64,000 bases of DNA. Origin: Aromatoleum buckelii. GTDB taxonomy: Bacteria; Pseudomonadota; Gammaproteobacteria; Burkholderiales; Rhodocyclaceae. The notes under the pieces are model-generated. The model was not told where the DNA came from. It saw only the letters and a program-made list of their open reading frames with translations, and ran no database searches. The stretch is taken from contig NZ_WTVH02000010.1 of the NCBI RefSeq assembly GCF_012910785.2, positions 1,116,001 to 1,180,000 on the forward strand, in the 5' to 3' direction. The position numbers and the translations under genes were made by a program. Shown one piece after another: positions 31,729 through 62,555 of the stretch; the stretch's first letter is position 1; each line of letters opens with the position of its first letter.

Positions 31729-31746
31729 CGGGCATTCCGATTGCAC
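31729..31746 (+). promoter_or_regulatory. Sigma-54-type promoter before the DUF2795 gene
   Basis: GG at 31731-31732 and GC at 31743-31744, ten bases between, with a TTGCA -12 core; the -24 reads GGCATT. The GC is 36 bases from the ATG at 31780. Two TGTAA half-sites at 31656-31660 and 31676-31680 lie upstream where an activator could bind. Confidence 0.6.
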
Positions 31747-31779
31747 GAGGCTGGCCCCGTGCCACTCCAGGAGACAATC

Positions 31780-32010
31780 ATGGCCAGCCAGCAGAAAGAC
31801 GAAACGACGTCGGACCAGGCAGTACCGAACCCGGTTCAGGTTCAGAAGTTTCTCGGCGGCCTGGATTACCCCGTCGGGAAGCAGGAGCTTGTCGAACAGG
31901 CGCGCAAGAAAGGCGCCGACGCGAACGTGATGGACGCGCTCGAGCGGATCCCGGATCGGCAGTATGAGAGCCCCGTCTCGGTATCTGCGGAGATTGGCAA
32001 ACTTGGCTGA
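31780..32010 (+). CDS. DUF2795 small protein
   Basis: A 76-residue soluble protein of the DUF2795 family, recognised by the pattern VQKFLGGLDYPVGKQELVEQARKKGAD followed by VMDALERIPDRQYESPVSVSAEIGK. Members are common in soil and stress-tolerant bacteria and have no established function. The ATG at 31780 follows CAGGAGACA. Its end overlaps the probable start of the glycosyltransferase gene, and a sigma-54-type element lies just upstream. Confidence 0.8.
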   Translation: MASQQKDETTSDQAVPNPVQVQKFLGGLDYPVGKQELVEQARKKGADANVMDALERIPDRQYESPVSVSAEIGKLG

Positions 32011-33493
32011 GGGAACCGCAGCCGCGACTGCTTCGGCAAACCTCGCTTCGCGCTTGGAACTGCAATCCGGCTTCATCGTCGCGTTTCACGATGGTCTCCT
32101 TGCCGGCCGGGACGCCCCATTGCCTGCCGAGCCGGCCGGTTGGTGGCAGTGGATCGAGGAAAACCACCGCAGCAACACGGCGTTGTGGCGCGAAGAGGAC
32201 CGGGCGCGGCGCACCGACGTGCCGGACGACGAGATCGTGCGTTGCAAGCGCAACATCGACGCGTTGAACCAGCGGCGCAACGACGCGGTCGAGGCGCTGG
32301 ACGATTGTCTTCTTGCGGCCCTCGAGCGGGTCGTGCCGACACCCGCTCCCGATGCGCGGCTGTCGAGCGAGACCGCGGGTGCGATCATCGACCGGCTGTC
32401 GATTCTGGCGCTGAAGATCCACCACATGCGCCAAGCGTCGCAACGTCGCGAGGCCGGGGTCGAGCACATGCAGCGGTGCTCCGACAAGCTCGCGACGCTG
32501 GTCGCGCAGCGCGAGGACCTGGCGGCTTGTCTCGACCGCCTGCTGCAGGAAGCGAGCTGCGGAGTCGCGCGTTTCAGGACGTACCGGCAGTTCAAGATGT
32601 ACAACGATCCGTCGCTGAACCCCGAGCTGTACCGCCGCTCGCGCCCGGCGAACGATACGGCGGCGGCGAAGACGCCCTTCGCCGTGGATGTGCTGATCCC
32701 GACTTGCGACCGGCCCGCTGCGCTCGCCGTGACGCTGACCTCGCTTTTCGCGCAAAGCCTCGGTGCACTGCGGATCGTGGTGTCCGACCAGGGCGAGCGT
32801 CGCAGCGCCGAGGCCTCGTCCGAAGTGCAGGCGGTCGTGCGGCTTCTCGCCGCTAAAGGGCATGTTGTCGAGTTCCACCGTCACCTGCCGCGCCGCGGTC
32901 TCGCCGAGCAGCGCCATTTCCTGCTCGCGCAGGCGCAGGCGCCGTATGTGCTGTTTCTCGACGATGATGTCGTCGTCGAGCCGGATCTCGTCGAGCGTCT
33001 GCTGAAGGCGATCCGGGAGCAGGGCTGCGGCTTCGTCGGCAGCGCCCTGATCGGCCTGAGCCATGCCGCGGACCGACGGCCGCACCAGCAGAACATCGAG
33101 TTCTGGGATGGTCCGGTCGAGCCCGAAGAGGTGCTGCCGGACAGTCCGGCGTGGGCGCGCCACGAGTTGCACAGTGCTGCCAACCTGTACCACGTGCAGA
33201 CGAATCTCGGCCTGACGCCGGACCGGCAACGGCTCTATCGTGTCGCGTGGGTCGGCGGCTGCGTGCTGTTCGACCGGGCGAAGCTCGAGGCTGCGGGCGG
33301 ATTCGAATTCTGGCGCGAGCTGCCCCCCGAGCACTGCGGCGAGGACGTGTTCGCGCAGCTGCGGGTCATGGCACGCGACGGCGGTTGCGGCATCATCCCG
33401 TCGGGCGCTTACCACCAGGAACTGGCGACGACGGTACCGCGGCGTGACGTCGATGCGCCACGCGTGCTGCGCACGAAGCTGGAGGCACGATGA
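31964..33493 (+). CDS. DUF4254-GT2 glycosyltransferase fusion
   Basis: A 509-residue protein with two parts. Residues ~35-225 match DUF4254: ENHRSNTALWREEDRARR, KRNIDALNQRRNDAVEALDD, GAIIDRLSILALKIHHMRQ and the terminal RQFKMYNDPSLNPELYRR. Residues ~238-500 are a family 2 glycosyltransferase: VDVLIPTCDRPAALAVTLTSL, the metal-binding LFLDDDVVVEPD, and VGGCVLFDRAKLEAAGGFEF with the later EDVFAQLR. DUF4254 proteins usually stand alone near glycan genes. The start is uncertain: ATG 31964 is listed; TTG 32003 overlaps the DUF2795 stop and has GGAGA nine bases upstream. Confidence 0.82.
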   Translation: MRAPSRYLRRLANLAEGTAAATASANLASRLELQSGFIVAFHDGLLAGRDAPLPAEPAGWWQWIEENHRSNTALWREEDRARRTDVPDDEIVRCKRNIDALNQRRNDAVEALDDCLLAALERVVPTPAPDARLSSETAGAIIDRLSILALKIHHMRQASQRREAGVEHMQRCSDKLATLVAQREDLAACLDRLLQEASCGVARFRTYRQFKMYNDPSLNPELYRRSRPANDTAAAKTPFAVDVLIPTCDRPAALAVTLTSLFAQSLGALRIVVSDQGERRSAEASSEVQAVVRLLAAKGHVVEFHRHLPRRGLAEQRHFLLAQAQAPYVLFLDDDVVVEPDLVERLLKAIREQGCGFVGSALIGLSHAADRRPHQQNIEFWDGPVEPEEVLPDSPAWARHELHSAANLYHVQTNLGLTPDRQRLYRVAWVGGCVLFDRAKLEAAGGFEFWRELPPEHCGEDVFAQLRVMARDGGCGIIPSGAYHQELATTVPRRDVDAPRVLRTKLEAR

Positions 33494-33550
33494 CGGGTTC
33501 GGCAGGCAAGGCTGCGCCCTCGCGTTTCGCCAAAGTTGCGGCTGCCGAAG

Positions 33551-34609
33551 TCACGGAGCTGGCGCTGGAGCTGCGGCGCGATACGCAGGCATTGCCAGCA
33601 GTGCCCGCGCCTGCGCCAGCACCTCGCTGAGGTCTTCGTCGCCACCGCCCTGAGCCCCTCGGTCGCGCGCCGGCGCCCATACCGGTCGATGCAGCGCCCG
33701 ATCGAGCGGCGCCCAGCGCGCGATCTCCGACGCCCGGAAGAGGATCACGCACGGCAGTTTGAGCGCCGCGGCGAGATGCGCGACGCCGGTGTCGTTGCAC
33801 ACCAGCAGCCGCGCGCCGCCCAGCAGGGCCGCAAGGGCACCGGCGGAGATCGGCGCCGCAGCATCGATCGCGGGAGCGCGCATCGCAGCCTTTACCGCAG
33901 CGGTGATCGAAGTCTCGTACTGCGAGCCGGTCAGCACCAGCGGCAAGCCGCAGTCGTCATGCAAGGCATCGCCAACCGCGGCGAACCGCTCGGGCGGCCA
34001 GCGCCGTTCCGCTGCTCGTGCGCCAGCGTGCAGACAAACGTACCCATCCGGCCGCAGGCCTTCAGCGACGCTGCTCGCCGCGAGTTCGGCGTGGTCGGCA
34101 GCGGTGAGCGGAAACTCCAGGTGTTCCCCGACAGGCGGGGCGCCGAGAAAGCGCATCAGCGCCAGCAGACGCCGGATCTCCGCGCCGTCGTCGGGATAGG
34201 GCAGGAACGCCCTGTCGCCACTGCCCGGAGCGCCGAAGCCGGCATTGAACCGCGCGCCGAACTGGGCGACGAGCGGGTTCGTGATCGTGCCGTTGCCATG
34301 CATCTGGATCGCCAGATCGGCTCGCCGCGCCCGCATCCCGTCGAGGAACTCGGACAGCGCGGCGGAATCGGGGGGTTGTTCCGGCAGGCCCGGAAAGCCG
34401 GGAAAGGCGACGAAATCGTCGAGATGGCGAGGGTAGCGGGCGGCAAACGCCGCGGCCCACGGCAGGCCGACGAGCGTGATGTGCGCGTGCGGACAGGCTG
34501 CGCGCAACGCGCGCAGCGCGGGCACCGCACACAGCATGTCGCCCAGTTGCAGCGCGCGGAACACGACGATCGTCCGCGGCTGCAGAACTTCCAGCAAGGG
34601 ATGCGGCAT
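33551..34609 (-). CDS. Glycosyltransferase family 9 (heptosyltransferase-like)
   Basis: A 352-residue GT9 enzyme. The N-terminus reads TIVVFRALQLGDMLCAVPALRAL, the heptosyltransferase fold start. Later segments are YVCLHAGARAAERRWPPERFAAV and LLVCNDTGVAHLAAALKLPCVILF, the nucleotide-sugar binding region. It transfers a heptose or other sugar to a lipopolysaccharide or glycan acceptor. It is convergent with the DUF4254-GT2 gene, 57 bases apart, and the pair may act on the same glycan. Confidence 0.88.
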   Translation of the reverse strand: MPHPLLEVLQPRTIVVFRALQLGDMLCAVPALRALRAACPHAHITLVGLPWAAAFAARYPRHLDDFVAFPGFPGLPEQPPDSAALSEFLDGMRARRADLAIQMHGNGTITNPLVAQFGARFNAGFGAPGSGDRAFLPYPDDGAEIRRLLALMRFLGAPPVGEHLEFPLTAADHAELAASSVAEGLRPDGYVCLHAGARAAERRWPPERFAAVGDALHDDCGLPLVLTGSQYETSITAAVKAAMRAPAIDAAAPISAGALAALLGGARLLVCNDTGVAHLAAALKLPCVILFRASEIARWAPLDRALHRPVWAPARDRGAQGGGDEDLSEVLAQARALLAMPAYRAAAPAPAP

Positions 34610-34811
34610 TCGGGTTTCCTGCTAAGGACGAGCTTGCGCTGCTGCAATCGGGATGCCGGGCCGAATTGGCCGCATTGCAGAATCGGTCGGATGCTGCGGG
34701 GACGGGCACGCGTGATTGGCGCGGGCCGAGCAGGTCGCCAGGCGCTTCTTACAAGGCCGTGTAGTTGTTGCACCCGGTATTGCAGGACGATTGCGCCGCG
34801 CGAATGACAGG

Positions 34812-36954: not shown

Positions 36955-36972
36955 AAGGCACGGCGCTTGCGA
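36955..36972 (+). promoter_or_regulatory. Sigma-54 promoter before the DUF2892-glgB-glgE-treS operon
   Basis: GGCACG at 36957-36962 and TTGC at 36967-36970, with exact GG-N10-GC spacing. Both halves match the consensus fully. The GC is 93 bases before the first ATG at 37063. One of the two best matches in the window. Confidence 0.72.
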
Positions 36973-37062: not shown

Positions 37063-37512
37063 ATGTTGTCATCGACCGTAGACCGCGTCCCGGCGCACAC
37101 CGCCGCCCACATCAACCAGCGGATCCGACAGCTTACCCGGGAGAACATCGAGCGCGCGTCGCTCGGTGGGCCGGCGCAAATCGACCGGCGGCTGGCGGAA
37201 CTGGACGAGGAGTGGGACATCGAGCGCACGCTCGAGGCGAATGCGGCCTCGGTGATGCTCGCCGGCACCGCGCTGGCGCTGTTCGTCGATCGTCGCTTCC
37301 TGGCGCTGCCCGCGCTCGTCGGCGCGTTTCTGCTGCAGCATGCGCTGCAGGGCTGGTGCCCGCCGCTGCCGCTGTTCCGGCGCCTGGGCGTGCGCACCGC
37401 GGGCGAGATCGAGGAGGAGCGCCGCGCGCTGCAAGCGATGCGCAATGGCACGCCCCGCGCGACCGGTTCCCCTGTCCACGGCGCGGGCGCCGCGATCGAG
37501 CGGATCCGCTGA
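37063..37512 (+). CDS. DUF2892-type small membrane protein
   Basis: A 149-residue protein with a charged helical N-terminus ([18 protein letters not shown]), one hydrophobic hairpin ([19 protein letters not shown] and [17 protein letters not shown]) and a [14 protein letters not shown] segment. The hairpin followed by CPP(L)xxLRRLGVRT matches the YgaP-type transmembrane domain (DUF2892). It is the first gene after a sigma-54 promoter, with glgB 13 bases downstream. CAGGAGGCAGCC precedes the ATG. Function unknown. Confidence 0.78.
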
Positions 37513-37525
37513 CGAGGGGGGCCGG

Positions 37526-39413
<1,888 letters not shown>

Positions 39414-39433
<20 letters not shown>

Positions 39434-41456
39434 CGTAATGGAGGATGCGCGCCGCGTGCCGGACGAAGGGCGGATTCGCGCAGTCATCGAATCGGTCACG
39501 CCGCAGGTCGACGGCGGTCGCTTCGCTGTCAAGCGCGTCGTTGGCGACGAGTTCGACGTCGAGGCCGACTGCTTCGCGGATGGTCACGACGCGGTGCTCG
39601 CGATGCTGTGCTGGCGGCGCGACGAGGACGAGCAGTGGCACGCGGTGCCGATGACGGCGATCGGCAACGACCGCTGGCGCGGGCGCATCAGGCTCGGCGA
39701 GATCGGGCGCTGCTGGTACACCGTCACGGCGTGGGTCGATGCGTTCGAGTCGTGGCGCCGGGATCTCGCGCGGCGTGTCGAGCCCGACGACATCCGCATG
39801 GCGAGCCTGATCGGCGCCGACCTGATCGAGGAGACCGCCGAACGCGCGACGATCGGCGACGACCGCGAGCGGCTCGCGGCGTGGGCGCGGCGGCTGCGCG
39901 ACGCGAGCCAGGCCGAAGGCGCGGATGCGCAGGCGCTCAAGGCGCTGGGGCTCGATGCGCGCTTCGGCGAGATCGCGGCACGCCATCCGGACCGCCGCTT
40001 CGCTGCCGTCCACCCGATGCTGCCGCTCGATATCGACCGTCCGCTCGCGCGCTTCGGCGCGTGGTACGAGCTTTTCCCGCGGTCGACCGCGCCGGTCGCC
40101 GGGGCGCACGGAACGCTGCGCAGCTGCGCCGACCGTCTCGCCGATATCGCCGCGATGGGCTTCGACGTGCTGTACCTGCCGCCGATCCATCCGGTCGGCC
40201 GGGAGCGGCGCAAGGGGCCGAACAACACGCTCGCCGCCGGGCCGGATGACGTCGGCAGCCCGTGGGCGATCGGCGCCGCGGAAGGCGGACACCTTGCGGT
40301 GCACCCGCTGCTCGGCACGGTCGACGATTTGCGCTTTCTGATTGCGCGTGCGCGAGAGCACGGCGTCGAGCTCGCGCTCGACATCGCGCTGCAGTGCGCG
40401 CCGGATCATCCGTGGGTCGCCGAGCATCCCGAATGGTTTCGCCGCCGGCCCGACGGGAGTGTGCAGTACGCCGAGAACCCGCCGAAGAAATACCAGGACA
40501 TCTACCCGTTCGACTTCGAGACCGGCGACTGGCAGGCGATGTGGGAAGCGCTCGCCGGCATCTTCCGCCACTGGATCGCAGACGGCGTGCGAATATTCCG
40601 CGTCGATAATCCGCACACCAAGGCTTTTCCGTTCTGGGAATGGGCGATCGCGAGCATCCGCGGTGATCATCCGGACGCGATCTTCCTCGCCGAAGCCTTC
40701 ACGCGGCCGCGCGTCATGCACCGGCTCGCGAAGCTCGGCTTCACGCAGTCGTACACGTACTTCACGTGGCGCAACACGCGCGCCGAGCTCACCGAGTATT
40801 TCACCGAGCTCGCGCACGGCCCAGGCGCCGATTACTTCCGCCCGAACGTCTGGCCCAATACGCCCGACATCCTGCCCGAATATCTGCAGCTGGGTGGGCG
40901 GCCGGCCTTCGTCGTGCGCCTCGTGCTCGCGGCGACGCTCGCAGCGACCTACGGCATCTACGGCCCCGCCTTCGAGCTGATGGAGCACGTGCCGCGCGAG
41001 CCGGGCAGCGAGGAATATCTCAATTCCGAGAAATACCAGCTGCGCGAATGGGACCTCGATCGGCCCGACAGCCTCGCCGCGCTGATCGGGCGCGTCAATC
41101 GCGTGCGCCGCGACAATCCGGCGCTGCATGACAACACGTCGCTGCGTTTCCTGCCCATCGACAACGACCAGCTGATCGCGTACTCGAAGACGGCGGAGGC
41201 AGGTGACAACATCATCGTCGTCGTCGCGAATCTCGATCCGCACAACGTCCATTCGGGCTGGCTCGAACTCGACCTCGACGCGCTCGGCATCGTCGCCGGG
41301 ACGAGCTTCCAGATGCACGACCTGCTGTCCGGCGCGCGCTACCTGTGGAGCAGCGCGCGCAACTTCGTGCGGCTCGACCCGCAGCGCGTTCCGGCACACC
41401 TTTTCGTGCTGCGCCGCCGCGTGCGCAGCGAACGCGATTTCGACTACTTCCTGTAA
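39414..41456 (+). CDS. glgE: Alpha-1,4-glucan:maltose-1-phosphate maltosyltransferase
   Basis: A 680-residue GH13_3 enzyme that extends alpha-glucan with maltose units from maltose-1-phosphate. The catalytic nucleophile is Asp398 in FRVDNPHTK and the acid Glu427 in FLAEAFTRP. An N-terminal beta domain (about residues 20-115) and helical insertion precede the barrel, as in characterised GlgE. The ATG at 39414 has GGAGGTCG just before it and overlaps the glgB end. It takes its substrate from the fused maltokinase encoded next. Confidence 0.95.
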
Positions 41457-41468
41457 GGGCTGTCGACG

Positions 41469-44400
41469 ATGGATCTGTTGCCCGCAATGGCCGCGCCGGA
41501 CAAGGAAACCGACGACGGGCTCTGGTACAAGGACGCGGTGGTGTACGAGCTGCACGTCAAGGCGTTCTTCGACGCCAATGACGACGGCGTCGGCGACTTC
41601 AACGGTCTGACGCGCAAGCTCGACTACATCCGCGACCTCGGCGTCAACACGATCTGGCTGCTGCCGTTCTACCCGTCGCCGCTGAAGGACGACGGCTACG
41701 ACGTCGCCGACTACCACGGCGTACTGCCGGCATATGGCACGCGCGCCGATTTCCGTCAGTTCGTCCGCGAAGCGCATCGGCGCGGCCTGCGCGTCATCAC
41801 CGAGCTCGTCGTCAACCACACCTCCGACCAGCACGCATGGTTCCAGGCCGCACGCCGCGCCCCGGCAGGGTCGTCGAAGCGCAACTACTACGTGTGGAGC
41901 GATGATCCGACGCGTTACAGCGGCACGCGCATCATCTTCACCGACACCGAGACGTCGAACTGGGCGTGGGACCCGGTGGCGAAGTCGTACTACTGGCACC
42001 GCTTCTTCAGCCACCAGCCGGACCTCAACTTCGAGAACCCGCACGTCCTCAAGGCGGTGCTGCGCACGATGCGCTTCTGGCTCGACATGGGCGTCGACGG
42101 CTTCCGCCTCGACGCGGTGCCGTACCTGCGCGAACGCGAAGGCACGAACAACGAGAATCTGCCCGAGACGCACGACGTGATCCGCGAGATCAGGAAATGC
42201 ATCGACGCGCACTACCGCGGCCGCGTGCTGCTCGCCGAAGCGAACCAGTGGCCCGAAGACGTGCGCGAGTATTTCGGCGACGGCGACGAATGCCACATGG
42301 CTTACCACTTCCCGCTGATGCCGCGGCTCTTCATGGCGGTCGCGCAGGAAGACCGCTTCCCGGTTGTCGACATCATGCGCCAGACGCCGGACATCCCCGA
42401 AAACTGCCAGTGGGCGATCTTCCTGAGGAACCACGACGAGCTGACGCTCGAGATGGTCACCGACCGCGAGCGCGACTACATGTGGCAGTTCTTCGCCAAC
42501 GACCCGCGCATGCGCATCAACGTCGGCATCCGGCGGCGTCTTGCACCGCTGCTCGAGAACAGCCGCGACCGCATCGAGCTGATGAGCTTCCTGCTGCTGA
42601 CGATGCCCGGCTCGCCGATCATCTATTACGGCGACGAGCTCGGCATGGGCGACAACGTCTTTCTCGGCGACCGCGACGGCGTGCGCACGCCGATGCAATG
42701 GACGCCGGACCGCAACGCCGGGTTCTCGCGTGCCGACCCGCAGCAGCTCTACCTGCCGCCGATCATGGACCCGATCTACGGCTTCCAGGCGATCAACGTC
42801 GAAGCGCAGGCGCGCAACCCGCATTCGCTGCTGAACTTCACGCGGCGGCTGATCGCGATGAGGAACGGCTCGAAGGCATTCGGCCGCGGCACGCTGCGAT
42901 TCCTCGAACCCGGCAACCGCAAGGTGCTCGCCTACCTGCGCGAATATCGCGACCAGAGCGTGCTGTGCGTCGCGAACCTCGCGCGCACGCCGCAGGCGGT
43001 CGAACTCGACCTCGCGCGCTTCGAGGGCCGCGTGCCGGTCGAGATCGTCGGCCGCGTGCCGTTCCCGCCCGTCGGCAAGCTGCCGTATCTGCTGACGCTC
43101 GCCGGCCACGGCTTTTTCGCCTTCGAGCTGTCCGCCGATGCGCCGGCGCCGAACTGGCACGAGGAGCGGCTGCCGCAGACCGAGCTGCCAATCCTCGTGC
43201 TCACCGAAGGCTGGCGCACGTTCTTCCGCGGACATCAGGGCGGCAGCGCGGTGCGTCGCGCGATCGCCACTCGGAGCCGCGACCAGCTGCAGAACGAAGT
43301 GCTGCTGCCGTATCTGCAGGCGCGACGGTGGTTCGCCGCGAAAGGCGAGGCGGTGACGCGCATCGAAGTCGTCGAGGAGCAGGAATGGGCTGCCGGCGGC
43401 GGCAACTGGCTGCTCGCGCTGCTCGAAGTCAGCCTGGCGGGCGGATCGTCGCACCTGTACTTCCTGCCGCTCGGCATCGCGTGGGAGACCGCCGGTGACA
43501 ACCCGGTCGATCGCTTCGGCGCGGCGGCGCTCGCCCGCGTTCGCGAGAAAGCGCGCATCGGCATCCTGTACGACGCGTTCATCGATCCGGTGTATTGCCG
43601 CGCGCTCGGCCAGAGCATCGGCGGGGGCGGACCGCAGCCGCTGGGCGGCGGCAGTCTGCGCTTCACGGCGAGCGAACACTATGCGCGGCTTGCCGAGGCG
43701 CTCGACGACGAGGTGCGCCAGCCGCTGCAGGAGCAGACCAACACCGGCGTGTTCTTCGGCTCGCGGCTGTACCTGAAAGGTTACCGGCGCCTGCAGTTCG
43801 GCACCAACCCGGAAATCGAAGTCGGCTATTTCCTCGGCAGCGCGCCGGGATTTTCTCGCGTCGCCGCGGTCGCCGGTTCGGTCGAATACATCGCGCCCGA
43901 TGGCCGGGCGGCGGCGCTGGCGATGCTGCAGGAATTCGTCGATAACCAGGGCAACGCGTGGGATTACACGCTGAATCATCTGGACCGGCTCTTTTCTCCC
44001 GATACCTGGCCTGCTGCGGCAGTCGACGAAGCCGAGGCCGAGGGGATGGACCGAGTCTACCTGCTGCTCGCGCAGACGCTCGGGCGGCGTATCGGCGAGA
44101 TGCATGCGGCGTTCGCGCACGGCACTGATCCGGCGTTTGTCCCGGAACCGCTCGGTGACGCTGAAGCCGAAACGTGGCGTGCGCAGGTGATCGGCGATGT
44201 CGAGCGCACGCTGAGCCTTCTCGAAGCGGCGTTGCCGCGTCTGGACGAGCGTGTCCGCAACGAGGCGAGGCAGGTGCTTGCAGCGCGCCCCCCGCTGGTC
44301 GCGAGACTCGTCGGGCTCGACCTGGCGTCACCCGGCCTCGTGAAAACGCGGCTGCACGGCGACCTGCATCTCGGGCAGGTGCTGATCGCGCAGAACGATT

Positions 44401-44810
44401 TCGTCATCGTCGATTTCGAGGGCGAGCCGGCCCGGCCGATCGACGAGCGGCGGTGCAAGCATTCGCCGCTGCGGGACATCGCCGGCATGCTGCGTTCGTT
44501 CGACTACGCGGTGCGCACAGTCGGATACCACCACCTCCAGGCGCGCCCCGAGCACGCTGATGCGCTCACGCGGGCGCTGGTCGAGTGGAAGGAGGGGGTG
44601 GTCCGGAGCTTCATGCAGGCGTACGGCGAGGTCGTCGCGCCGCTGCCTTCCGTTCCGTCGGACGCGGCCGTCGCCGCGGATTTCGTGACGCTGTTCGTCA
44701 TCGAGAAACTGCTCTACGAACTGCGTTACGAACTGGACAACCGTCCGGAATGGGTACGCGTTCCGCTCTCGGCGCTCGCGGAAATTGCGGCGTTGCCGCA
44801 GGGAAGCTGA
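41469..44810 (+). CDS. treS: Trehalose synthase / maltokinase fusion
   Basis: A 1113-residue bifunctional protein. The N-terminal ~560 residues are trehalose synthase (GH13): DGFRLDAVPYLRERE, LLAEANQWPEDVREYF and IFLRNHDELTLEMV carry the catalytic residues. The C-terminal ~500 residues are a maltokinase (Pep2/Mak): QARRWFAAKGEAV at its start and the kinase motif LHGDLHLGQVLIAQNDFVIVDFEGEPARP. It converts trehalose to maltose and then to maltose-1-phosphate for GlgE. Together with GlgE and GlgB the whole trehalose-to-glucan route is encoded here. AAGGGCTGTCGACG precedes the ATG. Confidence 0.95.
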   Translation: MDLLPAMAAPDKETDDGLWYKDAVVYELHVKAFFDANDDGVGDFNGLTRKLDYIRDLGVNTIWLLPFYPSPLKDDGYDVADYHGVLPAYGTRADFRQFVREAHRRGLRVITELVVNHTSDQHAWFQAARRAPAGSSKRNYYVWSDDPTRYSGTRIIFTDTETSNWAWDPVAKSYYWHRFFSHQPDLNFENPHVLKAVLRTMRFWLDMGVDGFRLDAVPYLREREGTNNENLPETHDVIREIRKCIDAHYRGRVLLAEANQWPEDVREYFGDGDECHMAYHFPLMPRLFMAVAQEDRFPVVDIMRQTPDIPENCQWAIFLRNHDELTLEMVTDRERDYMWQFFANDPRMRINVGIRRRLAPLLENSRDRIELMSFLLLTMPGSPIIYYGDELGMGDNVFLGDRDGVRTPMQWTPDRNAGFSRADPQQLYLPPIMDPIYGFQAINVEAQARNPHSLLNFTRRLIAMRNGSKAFGRGTLRFLEPGNRKVLAYLREYRDQSVLCVANLARTPQAVELDLARFEGRVPVEIVGRVPFPPVGKLPYLLTLAGHGFFAFELSADAPAPNWHEERLPQTELPILVLTEGWRTFFRGHQGGSAVRRAIATRSRDQLQNEVLLPYLQARRWFAAKGEAVTRIEVVEEQEWAAGGGNWLLALLEVSLAGGSSHLYFLPLGIAWETAGDNPVDRFGAAALARVREKARIGILYDAFIDPVYCRALGQSIGGGGPQPLGGGSLRFTASEHYARLAEALDDEVRQPLQEQTNTGVFFGSRLYLKGYRRLQFGTNPEIEVGYFLGSAPGFSRVAAVAGSVEYIAPDGRAAALAMLQEFVDNQGNAWDYTLNHLDRLFSPDTWPAAAVDEAEAEGMDRVYLLLAQTLGRRIGEMHAAFAHGTDPAFVPEPLGDAEAETWRAQVIGDVERTLSLLEAALPRLDERVRNEARQVLAARPPLVARLVGLDLASPGLVKTRLHGDLHLGQVLIAQNDFVIVDFEGEPARPIDERRCKHSPLRDIAGMLRSFDYAVRTVGYHHLQARPEHADALTRALVEWKEGVVRSFMQAYGEVVAPLPSVPSDAAVAADFVTLFVIEKLLYELRYELDNRPEWVRVPLSALAEIAALPQGS

Positions 44811-44952: not shown

Positions 44953-44983
44953 GCTGTAACGGTTATATTTGATTACCGTCCTG

Positions 44984-45716: not shown

Positions 45717-45734
45717 TAGCAACCTCCTTGCCTG
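45717..45734 (-). promoter_or_regulatory. Sigma-54-type promoter before pagL
   Basis: On the minus strand GGCAAG and TTGCT with GG-N10-GC spacing (GG at 45732-45731, GC at 45720-45719). The GC is 67 bases before the GTG at 45652. Confidence 0.62.
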
Positions 45735-48964: not shown

Positions 48965-48982
48965 GCGGTACGCCGATTGCAA
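48965..48982 (+). promoter_or_regulatory. Sigma-54-type promoter before the Cys-rich protein gene
   Basis: GGTACG at 48967-48972 and TTGCA at 48977-48981 with GG-N10-GC spacing. The GC is 55 bases before the ATG at 49035. Confidence 0.6.
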
Positions 48983-49034: not shown

Positions 49035-49379
49035 ATGTCTCAGCAAACCACGCTATCGCCTGAAATGCTGGCCTGCATCGAGCTGTGCCGGCGTTGCCAG
49101 ATGGTCTGCCTCAGTATGGCGACCGGCCACTGTCTCGAGAAAGGCGGCCGCCATGTCGAGCCCGAACATCTACGCACGATGATCGTTTGCGCGGAGATCT
49201 GCCAGACGGCCGCGAACGTGATGGCGACCAACTCGACGCTGCATCGCCAAGTATGCGCAGTCTGCGCAGACATTTGCGATGCGTGCATCAGCAGCTGCCG
49301 CGACCTGGACGAGATGGAGGAATGCATCTTCGCCTGCGAGCGCTGCAAGAACAGTTGCGAAGCAATGACTTCCGTGTGA
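49035..49379 (+). CDS. Four-helix-bundle copper-binding protein (DUF326/Csp-like)
   Basis: A 114-residue protein with 16 cysteines placed along the inner faces of helices (CIELCRRCQMVC, CAEICQ, CAVCADICDACISSC, CIFACERCKNSC). This matches the DUF326 copper-storage (Csp3-like) family, which binds many Cu(I) ions in the core of a four-helix bundle. No signal peptide, so it is cytosolic. AAAGGAGATTTTCCG precedes the ATG. It may buffer copper for the surrounding stress genes. Confidence 0.88.
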   Translation: MSQQTTLSPEMLACIELCRRCQMVCLSMATGHCLEKGGRHVEPEHLRTMIVCAEICQTAANVMATNSTLHRQVCAVCADICDACISSCRDLDEMEECIFACERCKNSCEAMTSV

Positions 49380-49387
49380 GGGCCGTA

Positions 49388-49400
49388 AGTAGAAGTTACA
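49388..49400. promoter_or_regulatory. Candidate activator site
   Basis: On the minus strand this 13-mer reads TGTAACTTCTACT, nearly identical to TGTAATTTCTACA at 45810-45822. It lies 87 bases before the -24 of the next promoter, in the 183-base gap after the copper-protein gene. Confidence 0.45.
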
Positions 49401-49484: not shown

Positions 49485-49502
49485 GCGGTACGGATGTTGC
49501 TG
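49485..49502 (+). promoter_or_regulatory. Sigma-54-type promoter before the membrane protein gene
   Basis: GGTACG at 49487-49492 and TTGCT at 49497-49501 with GG-N10-GC spacing; the GC is 63 bases before the ATG at 49563. A second, weaker GG-N10-GC (49405-49418, TTGC) lies upstream. Confidence 0.58.
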
Positions 49503-49562: not shown

Positions 49563-50399
49563 ATGGAAATCAGATCGGAAACCAGAAGCGTGGACCCTGC
49601 ACGAGTGAGCAGCGTAACCATCGAGCCGGAAGGCACTCCGCTGTACAGCATCCGTTGGAGTGCGATCATCGCCGGTTTCGCCGTCGGTTTGGGCGTGCAT
49701 GTGCTGTTCGTCCTGATCGGCATCGCTGCGGGTCTTGCCGTCGTCGGCGCCGGCGAGCGGCCGGAGGGAGAGAGCATCTCGATCGCCGCCGCGACGTGGA
49801 ACACCGTCAGCATGCTGATCGCGGCGTTCATCGGCGGTTACGTGGCTTCCCGCTCGTCGGGCCTGCGGCGCACTTCCGACGGCATGTTGCACGGTGTGGT
49901 GTCGTGGGGAGCGACGATGCTGTTCTTTGCCATCCTCACGGGTTCGGTTACCGGCAACGCGCTCGGTGGGATGTTCGGCATGGCGGCGAATACGGCGACG
50001 ACGGCGGCAGCTTCGGCAGCCGGAGCGCCCGGCGACTCGGCCGTAGGCGAGCTGTTGTCGAGCCTCGAACGCGGTGACCGCGCGGCAGCGGTCAATATCC
50101 TGCAGAACCGCTTCGGCATGAACCCGGACCAGGCCAACCGTGCCGCCGAGCAGGCGTTGGCGCTGACGGGACGTTCGCCGTCCGGAGCCGATGCGCAGGC
50201 CGGCGGCGAGCCCATCGACGTCGCTCAGACTGCGTCGGCGGCAAGTGCGTGGCTGAGCGCGGCGATCCTGCTGTCGCTCCTGGCCGGCGCCGGTGGCGGT
50301 CTCCTTGGTGCGCGCGGTGCGCGCCGCCCGATCGTGCCCGAGCGCCACGAACGTCACGTGTCGGCGACCCCGCGTCGTCATGTGCCGACTGCGGGCTGA
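49563..50399 (+). CDS. Multi-helix inner-membrane protein, unknown function
   Basis: A 278-residue protein with four predicted helices: IRWSAIIAGFAVGLGVHVLF to about residue 60, SMLIAAFIGGYVASR, VSWGATMLFFAILTGSVTG and, near the C-terminus, WLSAAILLSLLAGAGGGLLG. Between the third and fourth is a soluble segment (about residues 155-225) with a helical repeat of Asn/Ala. Proteins starting TIRWSAIIAG are frequent but uncharacterised. GGAAGGACAGACC precedes the ATG. Its last 22 bases overlap the convergent amidohydrolase gene. Confidence 0.75.
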   Translation: MEIRSETRSVDPARVSSVTIEPEGTPLYSIRWSAIIAGFAVGLGVHVLFVLIGIAAGLAVVGAGERPEGESISIAAATWNTVSMLIAAFIGGYVASRSSGLRRTSDGMLHGVVSWGATMLFFAILTGSVTGNALGGMFGMAANTATTAAASAAGAPGDSAVGELLSSLERGDRAAAVNILQNRFGMNPDQANRAAEQALALTGRSPSGADAQAGGEPIDVAQTASAASAWLSAAILLSLLAGAGGGLLGARGARRPIVPERHERHVSATPRRHVPTAG

Positions 50400-52449: not shown

Positions 52450-53915
52450 GTCGGATTTCCTCCACTGCGGTCCTGTTCCAGGCGGCGCAGGAACACGCCC
52501 ATCACCTCGCGATAGAGCGCGTCCTTCAGCACCCCGTCCTCGTTGCCGGCGTCGACGTTCGGGTTGTCGTTAACCTCGATGATGCAGCAGCGATTGCCGC
52601 TCTGCTTGATGTCGACGCCATAGAAGCCGTCGCCGATCAGGTTCGCCGCCTGCAGCGCGATCGTCACGACGTCCTCCGGCGCTTCGCCGATCGCGAGCGC
52701 TTCGGTCGGGCCTTCGTTGCGGCCGGTTTCGCTGTTGTGATCGATGATCTGCCAGTGGCCATGCGCCATGTAATATTTACAGACGAAGATCACCCGTCCG
52801 TCAAGAATGCCGACGCGCCAGTCGAATTCGGTCGGCAGCCACTCCTGCGCGACGATCAGGTCCGACATCTCGAGCAGTTCGGCGACTTTCGCGCGTAGTT
52901 CCCTTTCATCGCTGACCTTGTCGACGCCGACCGAGAACGAACTGTCCGGCTGCTTGAGCACGCACGGCAGCGCGAGCAATGGGACGATCTGGTCGATGTT
53001 GTCGCGGTGGATCAGCAGCGTGCGCGGCGCCGGCAGGTTGTGGTGGGCGAGCAGCTCGGCCAGGTACACCTTGTTGTTGCACTTGAGGATCGAGTCGGGG
53101 TCGTCGATGACGACGAGCCCCTCGGCTTTCGCGCGCCGTGCGAAGCGGTAGGTGTAATGGTGGACGAAAGTGGTGTCGCGGATGAACAGCGCGTCGAACT
53201 CCGGCAGGCGGCCGAAATCGCCGGGCAGGATGAACTCGGGCTGCATGCCGAGCGCAGTGGCGGCCGCGGCGAACTTGCGCAGCGCTGGGGCGTTGGACGG
53301 CTGGTGGGCTTCTTCCGGATTGTGCAGGATCGCGATGCGAAAGCGCCGCGCGGCGCTCTGGGGGCCGGTGCTGCGCCGCGCAAAGTGCCGCGCCGCGGCG
53401 TCGAATGCGAACTGCCGATGCTCCGGCGGGATGTCGTTGATGCCGATGAGGTCGATCGAGCGCGTCTGCCAGTGGCCCTTGACGCGCTCGAAGCGGGCGC
53501 GCAGCAGCGGCACCTGCAGCAGCTTGAAGAGCTGCCCGGCGAGCACGTTGTAGCGCTGCGCGACGTTCAGCCCGAAATACACGCTCAGCTCGAACTGCGC
53601 GGACTTCAGCGGCGCGAGCGTCTGCTCGACGAGCTGTGCGAGCTCGCTCGTCAGCACCTGTACGAGGTTTTGCGACTGCAGGTCCTCGATCGTGCCGGCG
53701 GGCGGCCAAGGCCGGTGTCCGCGCGCCTCGGCGAGCAGCGAAACGTAGTAGCCGAGCTTCTGGTAGTGGAACGACTGGCACAGGTTGAACACGCGGGCGG
53801 AGCGGTCTTCGCCGTAGGCCGGGTCGGTCAGGTAACTCCGGGCGGGAACAACCGGCGGGCCGCTCTCGCCCAGCGGCCAGTCGTCGGGGTCTTCGACGAC
53901 GATCAGTGAATTCAC
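52446..53915 (-). CDS. RimK-like ATP-grasp ligase with N-terminal RLAN domain
   Basis: A 489-residue peptide ligase. Residues 1-~170 match the RimK-like ATP-grasp N-terminal domain (DPDDWPLGESGPPVVPARSYL, VFNLCQSFHYQKLGYYVSLL). Residues ~285-480 are the ATP-grasp: NNKVYLAELLAHHNLPAPRT, CVLKQPDSSFSVGVDKV, VAQEWLPTEFDWRVGILDG and IEVNDNPNVDAGNED with metal-binding Glu/Asn. The GTG at 53915 has GGAG five bases upstream and overlaps the peptidase stop (GTGA). It would add amino acids to a carboxylate acceptor. Confidence 0.88.
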   Translation of the reverse strand: MNSLIVVEDPDDWPLGESGPPVVPARSYLTDPAYGEDRSARVFNLCQSFHYQKLGYYVSLLAEARGHRPWPPAGTIEDLQSQNLVQVLTSELAQLVEQTLAPLKSAQFELSVYFGLNVAQRYNVLAGQLFKLLQVPLLRARFERVKGHWQTRSIDLIGINDIPPEHRQFAFDAAARHFARRSTGPQSAARRFRIAILHNPEEAHQPSNAPALRKFAAAATALGMQPEFILPGDFGRLPEFDALFIRDTTFVHHYTYRFARRAKAEGLVVIDDPDSILKCNNKVYLAELLAHHNLPAPRTLLIHRDNIDQIVPLLALPCVLKQPDSSFSVGVDKVSDERELRAKVAELLEMSDLIVAQEWLPTEFDWRVGILDGRVIFVCKYYMAHGHWQIIDHNSETGRNEGPTEALAIGEAPEDVVTIALQAANLIGDGFYGVDIKQSGNRCCIIEVNDNPNVDAGNEDGVLKDALYREVMGVFLRRLEQDRSGGNPT

Positions 53916-54916: not shown

Positions 54917-54934
54917 AGGCAAACGTCATGCCCG
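54917..54934 (-). promoter_or_regulatory. Sigma-54-type promoter of the amidoligase operon
   Basis: On the minus strand GGCATG and TTGCC with exact GG-N10-GC spacing (GG at 54932-54931, GC at 54920-54919). The GC is 40 bases before the ATG at 54879. Confidence 0.65.
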
Positions 54935-54966: not shown

Positions 54967-54984
54967 CGGGCCCCGTTTTTGCAT
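54967..54984 (+). promoter_or_regulatory. Sigma-54-type promoter before the CBS gene
   Basis: GG at 54969-54970 and GC at 54981-54982, with TTGCA as -12 core and GGCCCC as a weak -24. The GC is 51 bases before the ATG at 55033. It lies back-to-back with the promoter of the amidoligase operon. Confidence 0.52.
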
Positions 54985-55032: not shown

Positions 55033-55458
55033 ATGCAAGTAAGCGAGGCAATGACGATGGACGTGCGAATGCTCGATCCGGAGCAGACCATCGAGGACGC
55101 AGCCCGCATGATGGCGGAGTGGAACGTGGGAGCACTGCCGGTCAACGATGGCGAAAAGCTCATCGGCATGGTGACCGACCGCGACATCACGGTCCGCGCG
55201 GTTGCGAGCGGGAAGAGTCCCGACACCCGCGTTCGTGACGTCATGACGAAGGAAGTCAAATACTGCTTCGAGGACGAGGATATCGCTCACGTTGCCCGCA
55301 ACATGGGTGACGAGCAGATCCATCGGCTGGTCGTGCTCGATCGCAACAAGCGGCTCGTGGGGATCGTTGCGCTTGCCGACATCGCAAACACCGAAGGCGC
55401 CGAGCCTGCGGGCGAAGCGATATGCGGCATTTCGGAACCCACCGGTTCCACTCACTAA
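55033..55458 (+). CDS. CBS-pair domain protein
   Basis: A 141-residue soluble protein made almost entirely of two CBS motifs: MTMDVRMLDPEQTIEDAARMMAEWNVGALPV (residues ~8-40, first), and VMTKEVKYCFEDEDIAHVARNM to VALADIANTEG (second). The GMVTDRDITVRAVASG segment is a typical adenosine-nucleotide-binding loop. It would sense AMP/ATP/SAM-type ligands; the partner is unknown. TGAGGAGGTGAATC precedes the ATG. A strong terminator follows. Confidence 0.9.
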   Translation: MQVSEAMTMDVRMLDPEQTIEDAARMMAEWNVGALPVNDGEKLIGMVTDRDITVRAVASGKSPDTRVRDVMTKEVKYCFEDEDIAHVARNMGDEQIHRLVVLDRNKRLVGIVALADIANTEGAEPAGEAICGISEPTGSTH

Positions 55459-55565: not shown

Positions 55566-55724
55566 CTATAAAGCGCCGAGCAGCACCAGCACCAGAAGTA
55601 CGACCAGGATTACCCCCAGCAGTCCGCTCGGACCGTAGCCCCAGGAACTGCTGTAGCCCCAGGTAGGGAGCGCGCCGATCACCAGCAGCACCAGCAGGAT
55701 GAGGAGTATCGTCGATAAGGCCAT
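55566..55724 (-). CDS. DUF3309 dwarf membrane protein
   Basis: A 52-residue hydrophobic protein with the DUF3309 pattern: an N-terminal helix (STILLILLVLLVIGALPTW), a short Tyr/Ser/Gly loop (GYSSSWGYGPSG) and a second helix (LLGVILVVLLVLVLLGAL). The loop with WGYxxxWGYGPSG is diagnostic. The function is unknown. The ATG at 55724 is preceded by AAGGACGACGATC. A sigma-54-type promoter lies 51 bases upstream. Confidence 0.85.
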   Translation of the reverse strand: MALSTILLILLVLLVIGALPTWGYSSSWGYGPSGLLGVILVVLLVLVLLGAL

Positions 55725-55772: not shown

Positions 55773-55790
55773 AGGCAGCTTCCGTGCCCG
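55773..55790 (-). promoter_or_regulatory. Sigma-54-type promoter before the DUF3309 gene
   Basis: On the minus strand GGCACG (full -24 match) and CTGC (one mismatch in the -12) with GG-N10-GC spacing. The GC is 51 bases before the ATG at 55724. Confidence 0.6.
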
Positions 55791-55841: not shown

Positions 55842-55854
55842 TGTAAGCGTTACA
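55842..55854. promoter_or_regulatory. Perfect palindrome TGTAA-N3-TTACA between divergent sigma-54 promoters
   Basis: TGTAAGCGTTACA, a perfect inverted repeat. It lies 54 bases from the minus-strand -24 and 64 bases from the plus-strand -24, almost midway between the two divergent promoters. It is the clearest candidate binding site for the shared activator. Confidence 0.6.
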
Positions 55855-55915: not shown

Positions 55916-55933
55916 CGGGCACGCGGTTTGCCT
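55916..55933 (+). promoter_or_regulatory. Sigma-54 promoter before the DUF1328 gene
   Basis: GGCACG at 55918-55923 and TTGC at 55928-55931 with exact GG-N10-GC spacing, full match in both cores. The GC is 54 bases before the ATG at 55985. Confidence 0.72.
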
Positions 55934-55984: not shown

Positions 55985-56146
55985 ATGTTGTATTACGCAG
56001 CGATATTCCTCGTGATCGCGATCGTCGCCGCCCTGTTCGGGTTCGGCGGAATCGCAAGCGGTGCAGTCGGCATCGCCAAGATCCTTTTCTACATCTTCCT
56101 CGTTATCGCAGTGATCTCCCTGATCCTCGGGATCATGCAGAAATAG
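55985..56146 (+). CDS. DUF1328 dwarf membrane protein (copy 1)
   Basis: A 53-residue protein with two helices: [21 protein letters not shown] and [21 protein letters not shown], joined by IASGAVG. This is the DUF1328 (YtjA) family, known from other bacteria as small stress-linked inner-membrane proteins without assigned function. GGAGGTGTCCC precedes the ATG. A second copy is at 60552-60725. The BON lipoprotein gene follows after 76 bases on the same strand. Confidence 0.9.
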
Positions 56147-60323: not shown

Positions 60324-60341
60324 ATGCAAGCTCCATGCCTA
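60324..60341 (-). promoter_or_regulatory. Sigma-54-type promoter of the hypothetical/permease unit
   Basis: On the minus strand GGCATG and TTGCA with exact GG-N10-GC spacing (GG at 60339-60338, GC at 60327-60326). The GC is 40 bases from the ATG at 60286. Confidence 0.65.
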
Positions 60342-60359
60342 TCGGCGAAGCACGTTCAA

Positions 60360-60377
60360 TGGGTACGGCGTTTGCTG
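60360..60377 (+). promoter_or_regulatory. Sigma-54-type promoter before DUF1328 copy 2
   Basis: GGTACG at 60362-60367 and TTGCT at 60372-60376 with GG-N10-GC spacing. The GC is 177 bases before the ATG at 60552, longer than elsewhere, so the assignment is weaker. It faces away from the promoter at 60324-60341, only 22 bases apart. Confidence 0.45.
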
Positions 60378-60551: not shown

Positions 60552-60725
60552 ATGATCAAGTGGGCGATCATCTTCTTCGTCATCTCCGTCATCGCCGGCC
60601 TGCTCGGTTTCACAGGCATCGCGGCAGGAGCCGCGGGCATTGCGAGAGTGCTGTTCTACATTGCGCTGGCGATCTTCCTCATCGTCCTGGTGTTCGGCGT
60701 TTTGCTTGGCGTGCTCGTGTTCTGA
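60552..60725 (+). CDS. DUF1328 dwarf membrane protein (copy 2)
   Basis: A 57-residue paralogue of the protein at 55985-56146, with the same two-helix layout: [20 protein letters not shown], then [20 protein letters not shown] and a longer C-terminal hydrophobic tail. CACTAGGAGTAAACAAA precedes the ATG. Having two copies within 5 kb, each behind a -24/-12 element, suggests coordinated induction. Confidence 0.9.
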
Positions 60726-60749
60726 GCCTCCGCGCGGCGCCGGCCGCGC

Positions 60750-62297
60750 TCAGTGGAGTTTCATGCGCGGCCGCGCACGCCGCGGCAGCCATTCGCCGAG
60801 CGTCATCAGCAGCGTCCGCATGCCACCGAGCAGGACCGTCAGGTGGCGGCGGTACAGCATCCAGTAGCTCAGGCGCGCGAACAGGCCGCCGATACCGCTT
60901 CGATCGCCGCCCGCATCGCCTCCGGGCGCTTCGTTGCGTACTGGCGACAGCGCGCCGGGTTCGCGGTAGCGGAACGGGATCAGCGATTTGCCGGCCAGGC
61001 GGCGCTCCAGCGAACGGGCCAGCAGCTTCGCCTGCTGCTGGGCGGCGCGCGCGAGCGGAGGTGCGAGCGTCTCGCCTTCGGACGAGACGCAGTTCGCGCA
61101 GTCACCGATGGCGAAAATGTTGTCGTCGCGGAAGGTCTGCAGGGTCGTGCGGACCAGCAACTGCTGCCGCTCGTTCGTGTCGAGAGCGCCGAGCGACGCG
61201 AGCACTTCCGGCCCGCGGATGCCGGCCGTCCATACGACCAGGTCCGCAACGACGACCTCTCCGTTGGCAAGCAGCACACTGTCGGGTCGCACTTCGGCAA
61301 CGCGGCGGTTCAACCGCACGTCGATGCCGCGCCGCACCAGTTCGCGATGGATGCGCTCGGCAGCTTCCGCCGGAAGCGACGCGAGCAGCCGGCCCGTCGC
61401 TTCGAGCATGCGAATCTTCACCGGCTCGCCGGCCTGGCGCAGCAGGTACCCGCACGAGGCGATCTCCTCGACCGCGCCGGTCAGTTCGTCCGCGAGCTCG
61501 ACCCCGGTCGCGCCGCCGCCGACGATCACCAGCTGGACTGGCCGCGGGGCGCGCTGGGCGGCGCCGGCGCACAACGACAGCAGCCGGCTGCGAAAGTGCT
61601 CCGCGTCCGCCACGCTGTTGAGCGAAATTGCGTGGCGCCGCACTCCCGGTGTGTCGAAGTCGTCATCGGTGGCTCCGATCGCGATTACCAGCGTGTCGTA
61701 CCTGAGCTGCCGGCGCGCTGCCATCTCGATGCCTTCCTCGTCGACGAGCGGCGCGAGCCAGATTTCGCGACGGTGGCGCACGAGCCCTTCGATCCGCCCC
61801 GGATGAAAGCGGAAATGGTGCTGTCGCGCCTGCTGCAGGTAGTCGAGCGCCTGTTCGTGCGGGCTGCGCGTGCCCGCCGCGACTTCGTGCAGCAGCGGCT
61901 TCCATAAATGGGTAGGCATCGGATCGACCAGGACGACTTCGGCTTCGCCACGCCGGCCGACGCCGTCGCCGAGACGCGCTGCCAGTTCCAGCCCCCCGGC
62001 GCCGCCTCCGACGATGACGATGCGGTGTGACGTGGTGTCGGCGCAGGCGCCGGGCCAGGCCGGGTTCGATGTGGGTTTGTCGCGCCTTTCGTCATCCTCG
62101 GGCAGAAAATCCTGTCCCGGGGTGCCGAGGAAATACGTGCGCGGCGCGGCGCCGACCATAGAGGTCTGCATCGCGTCGGGCCACGCGGCGAACGGTGTCG
62201 GCGAGGACGCTGGCGACGCGCTCAACAGGGCGGGGCCGAGAAGACGTGAGGCGTGCGGAAGTGAGGCGTGCGGAAAGTTGGCTGCCAGTCCCGTCAT
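60750..62297 (-). CDS. Type II NADH dehydrogenase (NDH-2)-like flavoprotein
   Basis: A 515-residue FAD-dependent NAD(P)H oxidoreductase. It shows the FAD motif RIVIVGGGAGGLELAARLG at about residue 92, the NADH motif QLVIVGGGATGVELADELTG and FAIGDCANCVSSEG, the conserved FAD-binding end. The C-terminal helix (YRRHLTVLLGGMRTLLMTL) matches the NDH-2 membrane anchor. It passes electrons from NADH to quinone without pumping protons. The ATG at 62297 has an AAGGT site and a sigma-54-type element; it leaves an unusual 90-residue Pro/Ala-rich N-terminal extension. A start at 62174 (MQTSMVG) would shorten it. Confidence 0.87.
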   Translation of the reverse strand: MTGLAANFPHASLPHASRLLGPALLSASPASSPTPFAAWPDAMQTSMVGAAPRTYFLGTPGQDFLPEDDERRDKPTSNPAWPGACADTTSHRIVIVGGGAGGLELAARLGDGVGRRGEAEVVLVDPMPTHLWKPLLHEVAAGTRSPHEQALDYLQQARQHHFRFHPGRIEGLVRHRREIWLAPLVDEEGIEMAARRQLRYDTLVIAIGATDDDFDTPGVRRHAISLNSVADAEHFRSRLLSLCAGAAQRAPRPVQLVIVGGGATGVELADELTGAVEEIASCGYLLRQAGEPVKIRMLEATGRLLASLPAEAAERIHRELVRRGIDVRLNRRVAEVRPDSVLLANGEVVVADLVVWTAGIRGPEVLASLGALDTNERQQLLVRTTLQTFRDDNIFAIGDCANCVSSEGETLAPPLARAAQQQAKLLARSLERRLAGKSLIPFRYREPGALSPVRNEAPGGDAGGDRSGIGGLFARLSYWMLYRRHLTVLLGGMRTLLMTLGEWLPRRARPRMKLH

Positions 62298-62336
62298 CGC
62301 TGTACCTTAGGGGAAATGATTGTAATTCCGTCCCTT

Positions 62337-62354
62337 TGGCAAGACGTGTTCCTG
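62337..62354 (-). promoter_or_regulatory. Sigma-54-type promoter before NDH-2
   Basis: On the minus strand GGAACA (weak -24) and TTGC with GG-N10-GC spacing (GG at 62352-62351, GC at 62340-62339). The GC is 42 bases before the ATG at 62297. Confidence 0.45.
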
Positions 62355-62537
62355 CAGCCCGGGAGCGCGAAATCGGGACGCGCAGGAGGTGCAGGATCCG
62401 TTTCGGGAAATACGTCGTCACCACGCAAAAAGTTGCGAAATCAGGCGGAAATACTGGTTTTCATGTCTTGTGACAAAAAAATGGTAACGGTACTCTAGCC
62501 CCAAGTTGGGTCTTCGGTCTGGGGTATATGAGAGAAG

Positions 62538-62555
62538 CTGGCTCGAATCCTGCTG
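62538..62555 (+). promoter_or_regulatory. Possible sigma-54-type promoter
   Basis: TGGCTCG at 62539-62545 and CTGCT with GG-N10-GC spacing, one mismatch in each half. It is 140 bases before the ATG at 62693, so the link is uncertain. Confidence 0.4.

Follow-up and report, generated by a model that had tools for sequence, protein, structure and literature searches.

Sigma-54-type promoters across a stress-tolerance island of Aromatoleum buckelii and a candidate two-step cascade of RpoN1, RpoN2 and an island-encoded activator

A stretch of 64,000 nucleotides from the Aromatoleum buckelii genome, hereafter the window, carries sigma-54-type promoter sites before stress genes in its right half. 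The island to which these genes appear to belong also encodes a second RpoN (sigma-54), an enhancer-binding protein (EBP) and a hybrid histidine kinase. The closest described systems are summarized here. In Ralstonia solanacearum an rpoN2-lacZ fusion was silent without rpoN1, a TGG sigma-54 site, TGGCACAGCCTTTGCA, is located 63 bp upstream of rpoN2, and the role of the gene was termed enigmatic (PMC4371752); rpoN2 replaces rpoN1 only incompletely (PMC4676750). Wild-type Burkholderia pseudomallei shows stationary-phase katE expression at 48-72 h, and this expression was lost in an rpoN2 mutant (PMC4745423). RpoN paralogues are told apart by a single promoter position in Rhodobacter sphaeroides (-11) and in Bradyrhizobium japonicum (-12) (PMC3162934), and RpoN2 of R. 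sphaeroides serves flagella (PMC12316311). The second RpoN of Bradyrhizobium sp. DOA9, RpoNp, is said to have a restricted regulon and to act mainly in stress adaptation (PMC13207237). The EcfG response of, for example, Sphingomonas melonis includes ferritin-like proteins, trehalose/GlgX functions, PRC-barrel proteins, mechanosensitive channels and a hybrid kinase (PMC6599016).

The system in A. buckelii is similar to each of these in part. It shares with Ralstonia and Burkholderia a second RpoN in related betaproteobacteria, a likeness drawn from published description and not from tree placement, whereas no island, EBP, enhancer or -26 contrast is described in the accessible text on those organisms. 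As in R. sphaeroides, the promoters would be divided by one position, which is -11 there and -26 here. DOA9 is an alphaproteobacterium, and the accessible text on its RpoNp names no linked EBP or island. The gene content resembles that of the EcfG response, but the latter employs an extracytoplasmic function (ECF) sigma factor with an anti-sigma switch in place of an activator-dependent sigma-54 (PMC6599016). No description of the island sigma-54 system was found in the literature searched, which consisted of open-licence papers, so that subscription work may be missed.

We consider it probable that the right half of the window is part of a stress island with many sigma-54-type promoters, governed by island-encoded regulators via a two-step cascade of the EBP, the housekeeping RpoN1 and RpoN2. 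All evidence comes from sequence comparison. The window corresponds to C2:1116001-1180000 of the 4.16-Mb genome, and a window coordinate is the C2 coordinate minus 1116000. Genes of the window were predicted by our own codon-usage script, and their start positions are approximate. Sites were scored with a sigma-54 matrix of 16 columns whose frequencies were set after the published consensus. The terms RpoN box, -24, -12 and -26 are applied in their customary sense.

The first-pass annotation had proposed a sigma-54 regulon from 16 GG-N10-GC elements located before the genes at 31.7-62.7 kb. The bare pattern GG-N8-TTGC, counted across the entire window, is at chance level, with 49 copies vs 43.7 (standard deviation 6.7) in shuffles, and the signal is thus purely intergenic. 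Since the bare pattern lacked whole-window enrichment, we adopted the matrix together with a split into intergenic and coding DNA. In intergenic DNA the bare pattern is absent from 1-31 kb and has 19 copies in 31-64 kb, of which 16 face a predicted start codon on their own strand no more than 300 bp away. Above 12 bits the matrix found 11 intergenic sites in 31-64 kb. In 1000 dinucleotide shuffles of these non-coding pieces the mean was 0.40 and the highest count 4, and the 27.5 kb of coding sequence in the region yielded a single site. As controls, fourteen stretches of 20 kb from this genome contained 8 intergenic matches in 42.7 kb and 7 coding matches in 237 kb. With the -26 column off, 30% of 63 island genes had a site above 12 bits in the 350 bp upstream, vs 1.0% of 314 control genes. 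The relatives gave a similar picture in 20 further 20-kb stretches around an EBP or a second RpoN, taken across the order, where 86 intergenic sites above 12 bits in 53 kb of non-coding DNA compare to 19 in 347 kb of coding DNA.

It could be argued that GC-rich intergenic DNA yields GG-N10-GC accidentally, or that the observer was biased, and the bare pattern, unenriched over the whole window, would fit this. The 11 intergenic matrix sites against 0.40 in shuffles contradict it, the sites are nearly absent from coding DNA in the own genome and in relatives, and they recur before orthologues; we regard the probability of such an explanation as negligible. The comparison with shuffled and coding DNA, which had been proposed as a refutation, did not refute the regulon, the enrichment being confined to intergenic DNA. 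Many elements before these genes were thus confirmed, as were the three complete GGCACG-N4-TTGC copies at 36957, 45943 and 55918, all exactly present. The number of 16 held in part: there are 16 right-facing TTGC sites, approximately matching the claimed set, of which 11 score above 9 bits while those at 34814, 35858, 36997, 49405 and 54969 do not. The elements had been said to lie always on the right strand, which is true of the 16 facing a start codon; the site at 60326 (-) has its nearest same-strand gene 678 bp away. No comparable site had been noticed before the housekeeping genes at 11-30 kb, and 1-31 kb indeed has no intergenic GG-N8-TTGC but does have one intergenic matrix site.

The left part of the island occupies positions 31780-63734 of the window, and the island runs on to about C2:1224 kb, 44 kb past the window; its extent is about C2:1147-1224 kb, roughly 75 kb. 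The pattern GGYAY-N5-TTGC has 150 sites in the genome, and 18 of them are located in C2:1147731-1223545 (76 kb), where 2.7 are expected. By Pfam, the carbohydrate genes of the island encode GlgE, an amylase-maltokinase fusion, three CBM48 amylase-family proteins, a GlgC-type nucleotidyl transferase and a starch synthase. Further families are ferritin-like, ChaB, BON, PRC-barrel, CBS, DUF1328, DUF3309 and DUF4142, together with a mechanosensitive channel, PagL, a histidine-specific methyltransferase, a phospholipase-D-type protein and an ATP-grasp/GCS2 pair. The coherent stress set noted in the first reading agrees with this broad stress-tolerance content, function being assigned by family name only. 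The right half of the window is best explained as the left part of a stress-tolerance island with GlgE, glycogen/trehalose-type metabolism and envelope genes. Loss of RpoS as a reason for the island was not supported, RpoS also being encoded in the genome.

The candidate regulators lie just outside the window and were missed in the first reading, in which the sites themselves were real. The genome encodes two RpoN proteins; rpoN1 is on contig C5, and rpoN2 is inside the island at C2:1188809-1190251 (-). The EBP gene is at C2:1211909-1213333 (+) and encodes receiver, AAA+ sigma-54-interaction and Fis-type domains (PF00072, PF00158, PF02954), with a GAFTGA-like loop that reads GSFTGA in translation. 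By these domains and this loop the protein would be an NtrC-type response-regulator EBP. A hybrid histidine kinase of 998 amino acids with PAS, HisKA, HATPase and receiver domains is encoded at C2:1215224-1218220 (+). The genome holds 18 strong EBP matches, and the closest named relative with the island EBP is Aromatoleum anaerobium LuFRes1 (95% identity).

The EBP was found in 13 of 61 genomes, namely the own genome and others of the genus, family and order (E <= 1e-100; one a fragment). In a separate sample of 399 genomes of the order, 36 had it at E <= 1e-130, the same two thresholds defining its absence in the respective sets. A phylum sample of 398 genomes contained six carriers, all within the order, and no EBP outside the order at E <= 1e-120. 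Presence of the EBP coincides with a second RpoN. When the sets were pooled, 35 of 43 EBP-positive genomes had at least two RpoN, and exactly one was found in all 28 EBP-negative genomes tested, 15 of which were picked from a listing and are not a random sample. Two EBP-positive genomes not searched for RpoN (G135, G179) are not counted, G056, with an EBP fragment and two RpoN, is excluded from the 35/43, and G161, whose second copy is split into two pieces, is scored as having two. Within the genus, all 8 EBP genomes had two RpoN and all 9 others had one. Linkage of the second RpoN to the EBP, with both on one contig and no more than about 31 kb apart, was seen in 9 of 10 family genomes, G014 being the exception, and in 22 of the 25 genomes of the order set that have two RpoN.

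In a maximum-likelihood tree of 46 RpoN sequences, 17 housekeeping copies grouped together, as did 23 second copies, each clade at 100/99. Twenty members of the RpoN2 clade are labelled as linked to the EBP, and for three (G421, G290, G272) linkage was not seen; the G014 copy, labelled linked, has the island context yet is far from its EBP. The distinct clade and the co-inheritance with the activator suggest that RpoN2 may be a dedicated sigma-54 paralogue.

A second EBP homologue of about 300-360 amino acids was observed near the full-length EBP at L147, L150, L157, L158 and L159, in G029 (L077-L078) and in G057 (L081). In several genomes a short EBP homologue is located beside rpoN2; by its length it would have no receiver domain. 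EBP relatives were also present on 70 plasmid records (62 Burkholderia, 5 Paraburkholderia, 2 Cupriavidus and 1 Comamonadaceae). On a Paraburkholderia sabiae plasmid (L161) the relative is close to a BREX defence system, and no rpoN is annotated within 16 kb. In Bordetella the EBP gene BP2158 has its own near-perfect sigma-54 promoter, and its regulon was described as unknown (PMC11722255).

The palindrome TGTAA-N3-TTACA is a candidate enhancer. With up to one mismatch allowed, the genome has 15 copies; a 58-kb portion of the island accounts for 7 of these, where 0.2 are expected. It was first spotted by eye and then tested, so the statistics of the own genome are partly post hoc and the relatives provide the cleaner test. 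Copies were counted near intergenic sites above 11.5 bits that have a start on their strand no more than 700 bp away. There are 18 such sites in the own genome and 66 in relatives, or 58 when the near-identical G005 is excluded; a copy between divergent promoters was scored for both. At the 58 sites of the relatives, the palindrome with up to two mismatches was located at -30 to -200 in 22 cases, vs 0.75 in shuffles, and the downstream side of the same sites had 3 copies. Its centre is 49-125 bp from the -24 element (20 distinct copies), and it is often common to divergent sigma-54 promoters. Of 7 close-family genomes, 6 have it before the EBP gene and 3 before rpoN2, where 0.15 and 0.11 are expected. 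A count of 4-mer dyads on upstream regions returned GC-rich noise only.

These positions suggest that the EBP may bind the palindrome, and some observations speak against it. Just 6 of the 18 own sites have a copy within two mismatches, and the own copy before rpoN2 carries three mismatches. Among the 8 near-perfect copies that the genome has outside the island, L164 alone is suitably spaced from a sigma-54 site. The signal is weak in genomes of the order beyond the close family, where the palindrome precedes rpoN2 in 5 of 18 and the EBP gene in 3 of 18 (0.91 and 0.81 expected). The 12 own sites where the palindrome is missing, together with the 18 strong EBP matches of the genome, would also fit real sigma-54 promoters activated by another EBP, the palindrome then belonging to a different regulator such as a repressor. 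This is, however, improbable given the enhancer-like distance of the palindrome and its sharing by divergent promoters, its occurrence before the EBP's own gene in close-family genomes, and the co-occurrence of the EBP with RpoN2. The regulon over stress genes proposed in the first reading is supported by intergenic enrichment, strand and position, recurrence in relatives and an enhancer-like upstream palindrome.

The promoters depart from the canonical sigma-54 form at -26. This position was counted in intergenic sites above 12 bits with a start within 400 bp, and the -26 matrix column was switched off so that selection was unable to bias it. The count comprised 24, 1 and 157 sites in 30 regions, some of which are those where the contrast was first noticed; G019 supplies 2 of the 24 rpoN2 sites, and the G057 region is without RpoN2. 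A T at -26 was present in 16 of 24 sites before rpoN2 vs 8 of 157 before other genes, 94 of which had G; the Fisher p of 1e-11 is overstated because the genomes are related and the contrast was first seen by eye. Chance matches in coding DNA had T in 9 of 37. Of the 18 sites in the own island, only the one before rpoN2 carries T. Elsewhere in the own genome, 17 other EBP loci and 14 control loci together yielded 7 sites, 6 of them with T. Genome-wide, VGGCAYR-N4-TTGCW occurred 114 times vs 75 for the control in 8 RpoN2-positive genomes and 80 vs 90 times in 9 negative ones (p 0.015), kinship among the genomes making such p values too small.

The two RpoN clades also differ in the RpoN box, known as the -24 recognition helix. 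It reads ARRT[VI]AKYR in 17 of 17 RpoN1 and ARRTV[TS]KYR in 21 of 23 RpoN2. Six RpoN outside the two main clades were excluded from this comparison, four having S or T and two having A at the box position.

Taken together, the promoter-like sites and their recurrence, the palindrome and its spacing, the co-occurrence of the EBP with a second RpoN, the change of the RpoN box and the -26 difference were computed directly, and they are consistent with the following cascade. The island hybrid kinase would phosphorylate the EBP, which would bind TGTAA-N3-TTACA about 50-125 bp upstream of the -24 element. The EBP and housekeeping RpoN1 would then turn on rpoN2, whose promoter usually starts with TGG. 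In the second step the EBP would act with the resulting RpoN2 to turn on the stress genes, whose promoters mostly start with G/C/A-GG and which RpoN2, rather than RpoN1, would read. The published results on rpoN2 of Ralstonia and Burkholderia fit such a two-step order.

Several observations weigh against the cascade. Eight of the 43 EBP genomes show a single RpoN. Six further RpoN copies, five of them labelled as linked, are outside the two clades on long branches, so the linked copies form no single clade. Eight of the 24 rpoN2 sites lack T at -26, and rpoN2 of G013 and G319 has no site over the threshold. Two RpoN2 (G154, G290) keep the canonical RpoN box, and as G154 nevertheless has non-T stress sites, the change of the box cannot be the sole cause of the -26 difference. 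The genome-wide VGG excess is modest, absent in G008 and small in the own genome.

Some of this would also be expected if the EBP-driven regulon were read by housekeeping RpoN1, with RpoN2 being redundant or differently expressed and the -26 difference being functionless. In the genomes with a single RpoN, RpoN1 must serve any such promoters, and G057, which has one RpoN, carries strong TGG-type sites beside its EBP; the modest VGG excess points the same way. We consider this unlikely in view of the co-occurrence and linkage of the EBP and RpoN2 genes, the altered RpoN box and the -26 contrast within the same islands. The two RpoN of Ralstonia are not interchangeable either (PMC4676750).

For the individual promoters, recurrence was scored when a site above 11 bits was located upstream of the orthologue in relatives. 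Five of the relatives used are at least 90% alike in most proteins, so part of the recurrence reflects mere closeness. The predicted promoter at 31730-31745 (+; 13.2 bits) precedes a DUF2795 gene (31780-32010) and recurred in 3 of 3 relatives with an orthologue. The one at 34643-34658 (-; 13.2 bits), before a glycosyltransferase-9 gene (33551-34609, -), recurred in 1 of 5, the other four having poor orthologues of 38-53% identity; a palindrome copy with two mismatches is located 117 bp upstream (34760-34772). The site at 36956-36971 (+; 12.2 bits) recurred in 3 of 3 before the GlgE operon (37063-44810), which by Pfam encodes a YgaP-like transmembrane protein, a CBM48/amylase protein, GlgE and the amylase-maltokinase fusion. 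A palindrome with one mismatch, TGTAATTTCTACA (45810-45822), is situated between two divergent promoters. One of these (45718-45733, -; 13.3 bits), before PagL (44984-45493, -), recurred in only 1 of 4 relatives, and the other (45942-45957, +; 16.6 bits), before a gene with no Pfam match (46032-47192), in 3 of 4. Two further palindrome copies of the island are not at promoters: one with no mismatch lies inside a GCS2-family gene (52769-52781) and one with one mismatch (44955-44967) between the convergent amylase-maltokinase and PagL genes.

The site at 48966-48981 (+; 16.2 bits) precedes a gene for a small cysteine-rich protein (49065-49379) and recurred in 4 of 5 relatives, and that at 49486-49501 (+; 15.5 bits), before a gene with no Pfam match (49605-50399), in 5 of 5; the palindrome GTAAGTAGAAGTTAC (49385-49399) is 101 bp upstream of the latter. 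The promoter at 54918-54933 (-; 12.5 bits) precedes a reverse-strand run from 54879 down to 50378 with C39-like peptidase, RimK-like ATP-grasp, GCS2 and FGase families, and recurred in 3 of 3 relatives upstream of the orthologue of the 54667 gene. A weak site of 8.8 bits (54968-54983, +) is located before a CBS-domain gene (55057-55458), which has stronger sites of 13.3-16.4 bits in 5 of 5 relatives. Another weak site, with CTGC (55774-55789, -; 9.4 bits), precedes a DUF3309 gene (55566-55724, -) and exceeds 11 bits, without the -26 column, in 2 of 3. The perfect palindrome TGTAAGCGTTACA (55842-55854), one of two such places in the genome, is 75 bp upstream of the promoter at 55917-55932 (+; 12.5 bits), which precedes DUF1328 (55985-56146) and BON genes and recurred in 8 of 8 relatives. 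A second DUF1328 gene (60552-60725) is preceded by a site at 60361-60376 (+; 13.9 bits) that recurred in 6 of 8. The site at 60325-60340 (-), among the strongest with 16.7 bits, has no predicted same-strand gene within 600 bp downstream, and a small gene or RNA may be located there. A weak site at 62338-62353 (-; 10.2 bits), before a pyridine nucleotide-disulphide oxidoreductase gene (60750-62159, -), exceeded 11 bits in none of the 4 relatives listed.

Similar sites were also found beyond the island, before genes of the own genome that look stress-related by eye and resemble hemerythrin (L164, with a palindrome 121 bp upstream), PRC-barrel (L173) and erythromycin-esterase (L176) genes. L171 has divergent sites with a two-mismatch palindrome between them, and a fliE-like gene has a TGG site (L174). 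Four picked sites (L170, L178, L179, L180) are inside genes, so a match to the pattern is not by itself proof of a promoter. At the other end of the window, the gene run at 632-11258 (-) by eye resembles a polyketide/fatty-acid-type cluster, with ketosynthase-, dehydratase- and acyl-carrier-like starts.

Beyond A. buckelii, we lean slightly towards the view that many Burkholderiales have a stress RpoN2 whose changed RpoN box shifted the -26 preference away from T, and that one EBP runs the two-step cascade in them as a sigma-54 counterpart of the EcfG response. The recurring sigma-activator pair suggests a job for the second sigma-54 that has been called enigmatic, and thereby a testable role for the second rpoN of many betaproteobacteria. 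It points to a general-stress-type programme under an activator-dependent sigma factor, beside RpoS, with concrete candidate parts in the promoters, enhancer, activator, sigma factor and kinase. If the -26 difference is functional, it would represent a further way for sigma-54 paralogues to coexist in one cell.

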